From assembly GCF_900129615.1 (NCBI RefSeq), contig NZ_FQWI01000001.1:310001-374000 (forward strand): 64,000 bases of DNA, given 5' to 3'. Both the position numbers and the translations under genes were made by a program. Source of the stretch: Pectobacterium carotovorum. GTDB taxonomy: Bacteria; Pseudomonadota; Gammaproteobacteria; Enterobacterales; Enterobacteriaceae. Below, piece by piece: positions 6,495-42,367 of this stretch; position 1 is the first letter of the stretch; each line of letters starts with the position of its first letter. The notes below the pieces were generated by a model that saw nothing but the letters and a program-made list of their open reading frames with translations, ran no database searches and was not told where the DNA came from.

Positions 6495-6715
6495 GTTCGC
6501 TGCCATTCGCTAAAAAATGTGACCAGATGGTAGCAGAAAATGGGGCATGGCGTCACGGCGAGGCTACGCTTTCGAATGGGGTTACTGGGCTTATTGCTGT
6601 GGCTTCAGAGACGGTTGGCGCAGATGAGAATCGTTAAAAATAAGATTCACTTATATTCAGTTGAACATGAGGCTTGTCGACCGCTATACTCCGCACCTCG
6701 CAGGAGAGAGGGCGC

Positions 6716-6739
6716 ATACCCGTCATTATTTAGGGTATA
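6716..6739. repeat. ERIC remnant: two element ends joined
   Basis: ATACCCGTCAT, the left end of ERIC, is joined directly to TATTTAGGGTATA, the right end, with the roughly 100-bp core missing. Comparison with copies at 429-555 and 27697-27823 shows a shared AT at the junction, which fits deletion between short homologies. Confidence 0.65.
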
Positions 6740-6804
6740 AAATGACGCTCCGCCGAAGGCGCAAACTCCCATAATCGCTCAGGCTACCCTAACTGCGAAT
6801 TCCA

Positions 6805-6900
6805 TTGAAGCCAACTGGAGAGAGGTTGCCATGCAACCCACCGAAGGGGCAAGCAGCACTGCTGCGTAAACTCTCAGGTAAAGCGGACAGAGGGAGTGGC
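6805..6900 (+). ncRNA. Glycine riboswitch, single aptamer
   Basis: The conserved blocks of the gcvT-type glycine aptamer are present in order: CTGGAGAG (6815-6822), ACCGAAGGGGCAA (6840-6852), AAACTCTCAGGTAAA (6868-6882) and GGACAGAGGG (6885-6894). CTCTCAG pairs with the GGAGAG block. Only one aptamer is visible, unlike the tandem arrangement before gcvT. The next gene, a TRIC-type channel, starts 22 bases later, and its ribosome site AGGA (6910-6913) lies just after the aptamer. No terminator stem with a T-run is seen in between, so control of translation initiation is the likelier mode (inference). Confidence 0.88.
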
Positions 6901-6921
6901 ACATTTCACAGGATAACTTGT

Positions 6922-7548
6922 GTGCTGACTTACATCTATCTGATCGCGATTACGGCAGAGGGGATGTCCGGGGCGCTGGCCGCTGGACGTCGTAATATGG
7001 ATATTTTTGGGGTAGGCATGATTGCCTTCATCACCGCGCTTGGCGGTGGCACCGTTCGCGATATTCTCCTTGGTAATTATCCCATCGGCTGGACGCAGCA
7101 TCCCGGCTATATCTACCTCACCATTGGTGCGGGTCTTTTCACGATTATCATTGCGCGCTTCATGCACCATTTGCACCGACTCTTTCTGGTGCTGGATGCG
7201 ATGGGACTGATTGCCTTTACGGTCATTGGTTGTAACGTCGCACTGCAACTGAATTATTCAACGACGGTGGTGGTTATGGCGGGTATCGTAACCGGGATTT
7301 TCGGTGGGATATTGCGTGATATTTTCTGTAACCGTACGCCAATGGTGCTGAAAAAAGAGCTGTACGCCAGCGTCTCACTTTTAGTCGCACTTCTCTATCT
7401 TGGGTTAAAGTCGCTTAACGTTAATCACGATATTAACCTGCTGGCGTCATTCAGCATCGGTTTGGCCGTGCGTCTGGCGGCCATTCGCTGGTCGTGGCAA
7501 CTCCCGGTGTTTTCTTATGTTCCGGGACGCTGGAAAGGGAAGGCGTAA
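6922..7548 (+). CDS. yicG: TRIC-type cation channel family membrane protein (YicG/UPF0126-like)
   Basis: Reading from the GTG at 6922 gives 208 residues, close to E. coli YicG (205), beginning LTYIYLIAITAEGMSGALAAGRR. The open frame continues upstream to 6805, but that part is the riboswitch RNA; AGGA at 6910-6913 supports the GTG. The protein has two repeated UPF0126/TRIC units of three membrane helices, each with a glycine-rich turn: ALGGGTVRDILLG and GIFGGILRDIFC. Bacterial TRIC proteins form potassium-conducting trimers, but a riboswitch for glycine in front suggests a role in glycine or ammonium handling (inference). The substrate is unproven. Confidence 0.9.
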   Translation: MLTYIYLIAITAEGMSGALAAGRRNMDIFGVGMIAFITALGGGTVRDILLGNYPIGWTQHPGYIYLTIGAGLFTIIIARFMHHLHRLFLVLDAMGLIAFTVIGCNVALQLNYSTTVVVMAGIVTGIFGGILRDIFCNRTPMVLKKELYASVSLLVALLYLGLKSLNVNHDINLLASFSIGLAVRLAAIRWSWQLPVFSYVPGRWKGKA

Positions 7549-7712
7549 GGTTATCTTTCCCCATTCCATACAATTACGCTGATTATTGGTGCGAGTGGCA
7601 GTGGGGAAATAACGCTATGCGTTGCCGAACCCTGGTCGAAGGTTCTCACCTTCCCCTAATGGGAATCTAGTACTTTGGCGTTGGGATTTAATTCAGAAGT
7701 GTTGCTTTGAAA

Positions 7713-7797
<85 letters not shown>

Positions 7798-7951: not shown

Positions 7952-8800
7952 TTACAGAATAATGGTGCGGTTACCGTAGACAAAAACACGCTGTCCGAGC
8001 ACGCGGTACAGCGCACGACTCAGGACATTTTTCTCAACGTCTCGGCCGGCACGCATCATGTCGTCGCCCGAATAAGTATGGTCGACATGAATAACGTCCT
8101 GCATGATGATCGGACCTTCATCCAGATTATCGTTGACGTAGTGTGCCGTCGCACCAATGATTTTTACACCGCGCTCGTAAGCCTGATGGTACGGGCGAGC
8201 ACCGATAAAAGCGGGTAAGAACGAATGGTGAATGTTGATCACCTGATTCGGGTAGTGCTGAACAAAGGCCGGTGTCAGCACTCGCATATATTTCGCCAGC
8301 ACGACGTAATCAGGTTTGTATTGGTCGATCTGCGCGATCATCTTTTGATCGTGCTCTTCGCGAGTCAGTCCTTCATGGCTGACCAGATGGAAAGGAATAT
8401 CAAACCGCTCGACCAGCGTCTGTAAGGTATCGTGGTTGCCGATGACGGCAGAGATTTCGACATCCAAACCACCGTAGGCGCTTTTCATCAACAGATCGCC
8501 CAAACAGTGGGCCTCTTTCGTCACCAGAACGACGATGCGACGACGGCCAGCTGCGGTTAATTCGCGAGAAGATCCTTCGGGAAGCGCGCTATCCAGATCG
8601 GCTAACAGCGTGGTGTCGTTGAAAATCCCTTCCAACTCGGTCCGCATGAAAAAGCGGCCAGTGCGATGATCGACAAACTCATTGTTTTGCACGATGTTCA
8701 GTTCGTGCTTATAACAAATATTCGTAATTTTCGCGATGAGCCCTTTTGCGTCGGGGCAAATGGTTCGTAATACTTTTCTTTGTATATTTTGGGATTGCAT
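7952..8800 (-). CDS. purU: Formyltetrahydrofolate deformylase
   Basis: The 282-residue protein hydrolyses 10-formyl-THF to formate and THF, supplying formate for PurT and balancing one-carbon and glycine pools. An N-terminal ACT-type regulatory region (LRTICPDAKGLIAKITNICY) precedes a formyltransferase domain with INIHHSFLPAFIGARPYHQAYERGVKIIGATAHYV, containing the catalytic Asn-His-Asp set. The frame is open to a TTG at 8821, but the ATG at 8800 gives the family N-terminus (MQSQNIQRKVLRT) and has AGGA upstream. It is followed, across tRNA-Tyr, by the glycine-riboswitch gene, which is a suggestive neighbour. Confidence 0.96.
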   Translation of the reverse strand: MQSQNIQRKVLRTICPDAKGLIAKITNICYKHELNIVQNNEFVDHRTGRFFMRTELEGIFNDTTLLADLDSALPEGSSRELTAAGRRRIVVLVTKEAHCLGDLLMKSAYGGLDVEISAVIGNHDTLQTLVERFDIPFHLVSHEGLTREEHDQKMIAQIDQYKPDYVVLAKYMRVLTPAFVQHYPNQVINIHHSFLPAFIGARPYHQAYERGVKIIGATAHYVNDNLDEGPIIMQDVIHVDHTYSGDDMMRAGRDVEKNVLSRALYRVLGQRVFVYGNRTIIL

Positions 8801-8883
8801 GAGCGTGTGGATCCTGTCCAAAAACTAAAATAACGATCTTATGGTAACGCAGCAATAAGGCCGCGTGGGCGACTGCCTGTGTT

Positions 8884-42235: not shown

Positions 42236-42266
42236 TCAAATAAAAAGCCCGCTTAATTAAGCGGGC
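42236..42266 (-). terminator. trp attenuator terminator
   Basis: Perfect stem GCCCGCTTAA with TTAAGCGGGC (42247-42266) is followed on the minus strand by T5 ATTT. It lies between trpL and trpE and is the 3:4 hairpin of transcription attenuation. Confidence 0.92.
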
Positions 42267-42304
42267 CTGGGAATATCTGCATGTGTGATAACAGCAATGC
42301 GTGA

Positions 42305-42367
42305 TTAGTCCACCCGCGAGAGGGAAGAGCGCCACCAACCATGCTTCATCATTTTCTGCGTTGCCAT
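42305..42367 (-). CDS. trpL: trp operon leader peptide
   Basis: A 20-residue peptide, starting MATQKMMKHGWWRSS, carries tandem tryptophan codons at positions 11-12. Ribosome stalling there under Trp starvation prevents the 42247-42266 terminator from forming. It lies just downstream of the TrpR-controlled promoter. GAG upstream acts as a weak ribosome site. It is slightly longer than the 14-residue E. coli leader. Confidence 0.92.
   Translation of the reverse strand: MATQKMMKHGWWRSSLSRVD

Follow-up and report, generated by a model that had tools for sequence, protein, structure and literature searches.

Glycine riboswitches (Rfam RF00504) usually take the form of a tandem arrangement of two aptamers, and a 2007 survey, in its passage on this count, gives a second aptamer in 88% of the leaders with one glycine aptamer (PMC2258182). 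A singlet type-2 form with a 5′ ghost aptamer has also been described (PMC6944388); the relevant passages of that paper name aptamer II as the conserved one in the transporter contexts of Bacilli and generalize that uptake genes are expected to go down with glycine. For Pectobacterium, an RNA-seq study of P. atrosepticum presents, in the section concerned, four "glycine riboswitch" transcripts, two of which were previously in Rfam (PMC4710047).

On the protein side, the closest described systems are the prokaryotic TRIC channels 5wuf, 5h36, 5wuc, 5h35 and 5wtr. The original study behind the claim that UPF0126 genes act in glycine utilization is reportedly that of Price et al. 2018. According to a passage of a 2025 review, UPF0126 genes are important for glycine utilization in 11 bacteria and encode a predicted glycine transporter (PMC12173739). 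A structure paper, in the parts that bear on function, handles prokaryotic TRICs as cation channels and calls their role almost entirely obscure (PMC5477506). Glycine riboswitches in Pectobacterium are already known, as is the link of the family to glycine (Pfam and the review passage); what is new here is an instance of the pairing of a tandem glycine riboswitch with a TRIC gene, which carries a useful functional implication. We found no paper that names this pair, and subscription papers and supplements were beyond the reach of our search, so it may already be in print.

Two Glycine Aptamers in Series Upstream of a TRIC Gene

We analyzed a stretch of 64,000 nucleotides of Pectobacterium carotovorum (the window, whose numbering is used throughout), in which the features at issue are as follows:

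6661-6690 (+), predicted sigma-70 promoter, TTGAAC-18-TATACT
6691-6805 (+), glycine aptamer I, RF00504, 45.8 bits in the search of its own genome and 43.3 bits alone
6805-6900 (+), glycine aptamer II, RF00504, 56.8 bits, E 4.7e-9 for 64 kb
6898-6926 (+), hairpin over the ribosome site and start codon, predicted by folding (GGCAC..ACAGG AUAA CUUGU.GUGCU)
6910-6913 (+), Shine-Dalgarno-like AGGA, from the sequence, 8 nt before the GTG
6922-7548 (+), TRIC/UPF0126 membrane protein of 208 aa, Pfam profile PF03458 "Glycine transporter"
7713-7797 (-), tRNA-Tyr
7952-8821 (-), purU

The Pectobacterium leader is a tandem glycine riboswitch, with two aptamers in series before one gene. The first-pass annotation had called a gcvT-type glycine aptamer in a single copy; the RF00504 match at 6805-6900 bears out the aptamer, and the count is corrected by aptamer I directly upstream, which scores 43.3 bits when 6640-6804 is scanned by itself and aligns with model positions 1 to 94. 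Both aptamers lie above the RF00504 gathering score of 32 bits and have the consensus secondary structure. The search of the own assembly returned both of them and no further RF00504 match at E <= 0.001 among the 150 of 306 first-look candidates that were scored. Because the two aptamers have one base in common (6805), and the overlap filter of cmscan keeps only the better of overlapping matches, aptamer I is missing from the scan of the window, which itself states that one lower-scoring overlapping match was omitted. The same filter probably also hid the second aptamer in five relatives (L003, L026, L039, L050 and L056), for which one RF00504 match was reported and two aptamers are seen in the alignments. 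Overlap filtering of covariance-model matches is thus a practical trap that can make a tandem riboswitch look like a singlet.

Like other RF00504 tandems, the leader bears the blocks GGAGAG, CCGAAGG and CUCAGG, with GGAC in aptamer II, which has the complete consensus core; it differs from them in its downstream gene, which is TRIC/UPF0126, and, if the predicted promoter is right, in having hardly any leader 5′ of aptamer I. P1 of aptamer I is formed by TCGCAG (6698-6703) and CTGCGA (6793-6798), and P1 of aptamer II by GCC (6810-6812) and CTG (6815-6817) with CAG (6888-6890) and GGC (6898-6900), the outer triplet of the latter being our own reading, whereas Rfam aligns CC against GG at a more inward position.

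The alternative that this is a true singlet, with a ghost aptamer upstream at most, has scarcely any probability left. It would account for the single cmscan match in the window and for the lack of GGAC in J3/1 of the upstream copy, and the locus does resemble the singlet type-2 riboswitch in the passages describing it (PMC6944388), in that the downstream aptamer has the full consensus and the upstream partner is altered in J3/1. However, the upstream partner here is a whole aptamer, at 43-46 bits against the curated cut-off of 32, which rules out the singlet reading as far as the presence of a second aptamer is concerned. Moreover, 31 of 34 core columns (6749-6782) of the upstream copy are invariant and its GGAGAG is present in all 36 aligned leaders, which are those of the window and 35 other loci from several families, many of them near-identical. 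By text pattern, GGAC is found in J3/1 of aptamer II in 62 of 63 TRIC leaders and of aptamer I in 1 of 63, but it is also absent from aptamer I in 37 of the 87 other tandems that could be parsed out of 106 loci, so an altered J3/1 is not a peculiarity of TRIC leaders.

Promoter and Leader

Two overlapping sigma-70 matches were found in 6507-7720, where 1.1 are expected by chance. In the columns of the -10 hexamer, just 5′ of P1 of aptamer I, 28 of the 36 aligned leaders have TATACT, 6 have TATAAT and 2 have other hexamers. With this predicted promoter, transcription would start around 6695-6699, at the base of aptamer I. Tandem glycine riboswitches typically have a leader-linker helix, or kink-turn; should this promoter be the one in use, only a few bases would precede P1 of aptamer I, with little room for such a helix. 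No intrinsic terminator was found in 6507-7720, and the folding energy of the whole leader gave no signal against shuffled sequences (z -0.25).

The TRIC Protein

The assignment of the gene to the TRIC family was confirmed by a PF03458 match of 145.6 bits against a cut-off of 23.5, falling in two stretches that represent the two repeats. The best match among solved structures, by sequence, is PDB 5wuf (E 3.4e-43), and the near-full-length match and the two PF03458 repeats are the features held in common with the prokaryotic TRIC channels cited above. A PF03458 search of the own genome gave two matches, both in the gene at 6922-7548, the sole gene matched there, and P. brasiliense and P. versatile have an identical protein. 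The start codon is GTG at 6922-6924, and, as had been noted earlier, AGGA stands before it just after the aptamer. The interval 6805-7548 first assigned to the gene is that of a TTG-started open frame that runs through aptamer II; this longer frame was not upheld as the gene, which most likely begins at 6922. The name yicG is doubtful as well: the protein scores 126.1 bits with NCBIfam PRK10578, presumably the YicG model, below the curated cut-off of 326, and shares 51% identity over 195 residues with the single TRIC protein of E. coli used for comparison.

A role of the channel in handling glycine, already put forward from the sequence, agrees with the Pfam family name and with the passage of the 2025 review (PMC12173739). 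By analogy with the published fitness data on UPF0126 genes, which are the basis for it, the protein may transport glycine. Compared with the treatment of prokaryotic TRICs as cation channels in the parts of the structure paper considered (PMC5477506), the regulation found here points to glycine.

Recurrence of the Riboswitch-TRIC Pair

Of 75 loci that similarity to the TRIC protein brought together from named genomes, 66 have one aptamer or more before the gene. Tandem aptamers were recognized by text pattern in 63 of the 75 loci, and RF00504 was found in all six of these that were scanned with Rfam; among the 12 loci outside the text pattern, RF00504 is present in L024, L025 and L033. The remaining nine (L055, L059, L063, L065, L068, L069, L070, L071 and L076) have no RF00504 match, which counts against the proposal made below. 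The pair is present in Pectobacteriaceae, Symbiopectobacterium, Pseudomonadaceae, Marinobacter, Marinobacterium, Rhodocyclales and Comamonas, and also on an Azospirillum plasmid that was found separately. In two draws by protein similarity, of 398 and 369 genomes, the best-scoring matches gave 53 loci besides the window; RF00504 precedes the TRIC gene in 11 of these (L190-L194, L197, L201, L204 and L211-L213), and 42 have no such match before it. A tree of the proteins unites those of Pectobacteriaceae, Pseudomonadaceae, Marinobacter and Marinobacterium in one branch with a support of 98/100, distant from that of E. coli.

When the riboswitch is taken as the starting point, the pair is rare. 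RF00504 was found in 75 of 185 genomes of the class sample, and a TRIC gene lies downstream in 2 of the 78 loci examined there (the window included, three loci having no reading frame), which rules out TRIC as the usual target of glycine riboswitches. Similarly, in the order sample the 30 loci with the best scores all lack a TRIC gene within the approximately 3 kb examined. A rule selected the first downstream frame in the class sample, and some of its choices look spurious, which makes the sizes of the downstream clusters lower bounds: the largest has at least 43 loci, another at least 9 (L112 and eight others), and one at least 3. One member from each of these clusters, in trimmed or cut form, was compared with Pfam; the families matched were GCV_T, lipoyl synthase and a DAO-type oxidoreductase, respectively. 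Glycine riboswitches before apparent lipoyl synthase genes, at 9 of the 78 loci in the L112 cluster, are an observation in their own right.

That the pair occurs in several families supports a role of this TRIC branch in handling glycine, on grounds independent of mutant-fitness data. We tentatively suggest, with more reserve than for the single locus, that one branch of the TRIC-fold proteins consists of glycine channels induced by glycine, a tandem riboswitch turning on their synthesis. If so, control by RNA would have persisted as each lineage rebuilt its expression platform: a start-codon hairpin in Pectobacteriaceae and pseudomonads, a long anti-P1 hairpin in Rhodocyclales, and in Azospirillum a 23-codon frame whose end falls shortly after the start codon of TRIC. 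What TRIC does in bacteria would also become directly testable.

Several individual loci deserve a remark. In the Azospirillum plasmid locus (L141, 2709-2793), an ATG at 2722, located between riboswitch and TRIC gene and 9 nt after a GGAG, opens the 23-codon frame, and its stop codon TGA (2791-2793) falls a single base beyond the TRIC ATG (2787-2789), so that translational coupling is possible. L015, labeled Serratia marcescens, groups with Symbiopectobacterium in both the tree and the leader and is possibly a mislabeled genome. In L033 (Pectobacterium sp. PL152), the GGAGAG block of aptamer II is interrupted by a gap of one base, which may be an assembly error. In L217 (1087-1189) and L218 (1078-1198), both of one genus, a TwoAYGGAY RNA (RF01731; 51.8 and 60.5 bits) ends about 300 nt 5′ of the TRIC gene; this stretch resembles an intergenic palindromic repeat and is probably not a regulator.

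The Start-Codon Hairpin and the Direction of Regulation

In the window, the predicted hairpin at 6898-6926 pairs the GTG start codon and part of the AGGA, in line with the earlier claim that the start region can be folded away, and control of translation initiation by such a hairpin is the most likely output suggested by the folding models. The start codon is paired in the minimum-energy fold of all 21 distinct gamma platforms, where 15.2 are expected after shuffling, and GGC is paired to the start region in 18 of the 21 (11.0 expected). The stability of the hairpin is mildly better than that of shuffled sequences (mean z -1.36, 8 of 21 at p<=0.05), with L031 being opposite in sign (z +1.50).

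The left foot of the hairpin, GGC at 6898-6900, doubles as the outer strand of P1 in aptamer II. With two registers allowed, the outer P1 triplet is complementary in all 76 leaders parsed (85 loci were given, and 9 without an aptamer were dropped), although this corresponds to few independent events because the leaders are related. It is GCC/GGC in 68 leaders; the 8 that differ show a GUC/GAC double change (L037), a GUC/GGC wobble (L194), or a one-base shift (L035, L201, L204 and L211-L213). Because one GGC strand cannot serve both the hairpin and P1, an ON switch would follow. The mRNA of a TRIC-fold glycine channel or transporter would open with the tandem riboswitch, transcription probably starting at the foot of aptamer I, and this strongly conserved aptamer with its altered J3/1 would probably be at least a folding partner of aptamer II. 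The output would be translational, the hairpin burying the GTG; glycine binding would complete P1 of aptamer II and so loosen the hairpin through GGC 6898-6900, and more channel would then be made and glycine fed to catabolism, a direction of transport that is likewise presumed. We give this whole proposal, in which glycine turns channel synthesis ON through the tandem riboswitch, a probability of about 0.55, reflecting mixed results from folding and from shuffle tests.

The folding models bear on this direction in both senses. When the outer P1 is forced in the 36 leaders (many near-identical), the mean openness of the start codon rises from 0.16 to 0.35, but that of the Shine-Dalgarno sequence does not rise (0.47 free versus 0.37 forced), and the start remains closed (0.14 and 0.12) if only the inner P1 or the Rfam register is imposed, which indicates that the hairpin and P1 can coexist. 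The energy of pairing the P1 3′ strand with downstream sequence beats shuffled sequences in 0 of 36 gamma leaders (mean z +0.52) and in 4 of 30 beta leaders (mean z -0.66), the beta figure being rough since the start codon was picked by rule and this pick shortened the platforms of L047, L050 and L074. Competition for the P1 3′ strand thus fails as a statistical proof of an ON switch in the gamma leaders and is weak in the beta leaders. Among the 22 leaders of Rhodocyclales type, many minimum-energy folds join the P1 3′ strand to a pyrimidine tract next to the start codon, and forcing P1 raises the openness of the start from 0.45 to 0.60-0.67 and lowers that of the Shine-Dalgarno sequence from 0.67 to 0.50 (inner P1) or 0.22 (Rfam register or outer triplet).

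With the same riboswitch and gene, glycine could instead act as an OFF signal, the bound state stabilizing the start-codon hairpin and limiting uptake. This is a credible though doubtful alternative. The modeled closing of the Shine-Dalgarno sequence in the Rhodocyclales-type leaders would read as OFF, a P1 in the Rfam register leaves the hairpin intact, and the published expectation that uptake genes fall with glycine, as generalized in the passages quoted (PMC6944388), runs against an ON switch; also on the side of OFF is the preferential retention of GGAC by aptamer II, which parallels the Bacilli transporter contexts treated in the same passages. An OFF switch is at odds with the sharing of the outer P1 strand with the hairpin and with its kept complementarity. 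In Comamonas L056, moreover, CUCUCGC, immediately followed by UUUUUU, can by eye be paired with the P1 3′ strand; such a terminator-like layout would mean ON, but the minimum-energy fold of that stretch lacks this pairing. It is, on the other hand, very unlikely that the RNA is an evolutionary leftover whose control of the gene has been lost. Glycine binding and expression at this locus are predictions from sequence, and nine loci do have the TRIC protein without an aptamer; yet the near-invariant core of aptamer I in leaders of several families and the outer P1 complementarity, maintained through base changes, speak for an RNA that is still in use. With the tests of competing pairing weak or negative, glycine-ON is favored modestly.

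Neighborhood of the Locus

As stated in the first-pass annotation, purU lies beyond tRNA-Tyr, but a functional link between purU and the channel is not supported. Within 2.5 kb of flanking sequence, purU is present in 26 and xthA in 27 of the 75 loci, all of them among the 28 Pectobacteriaceae-type loci (which include Symbiopectobacterium and the record labeled Serratia), whereas both are found in 0 of the 47 other loci, most of which have the same riboswitch-gene pair. We therefore treat purU as local synteny and not as a functional partner. RtT RNA (RF00391) lies beside tRNA-Tyr in the Pectobacterium loci L190, L191 and L033, and was not found in the window at the gathering threshold. Elsewhere in the window, a tryptophan operon leader (RF00513, 80.2 bits) is located at 42239-42343 on the reverse strand.
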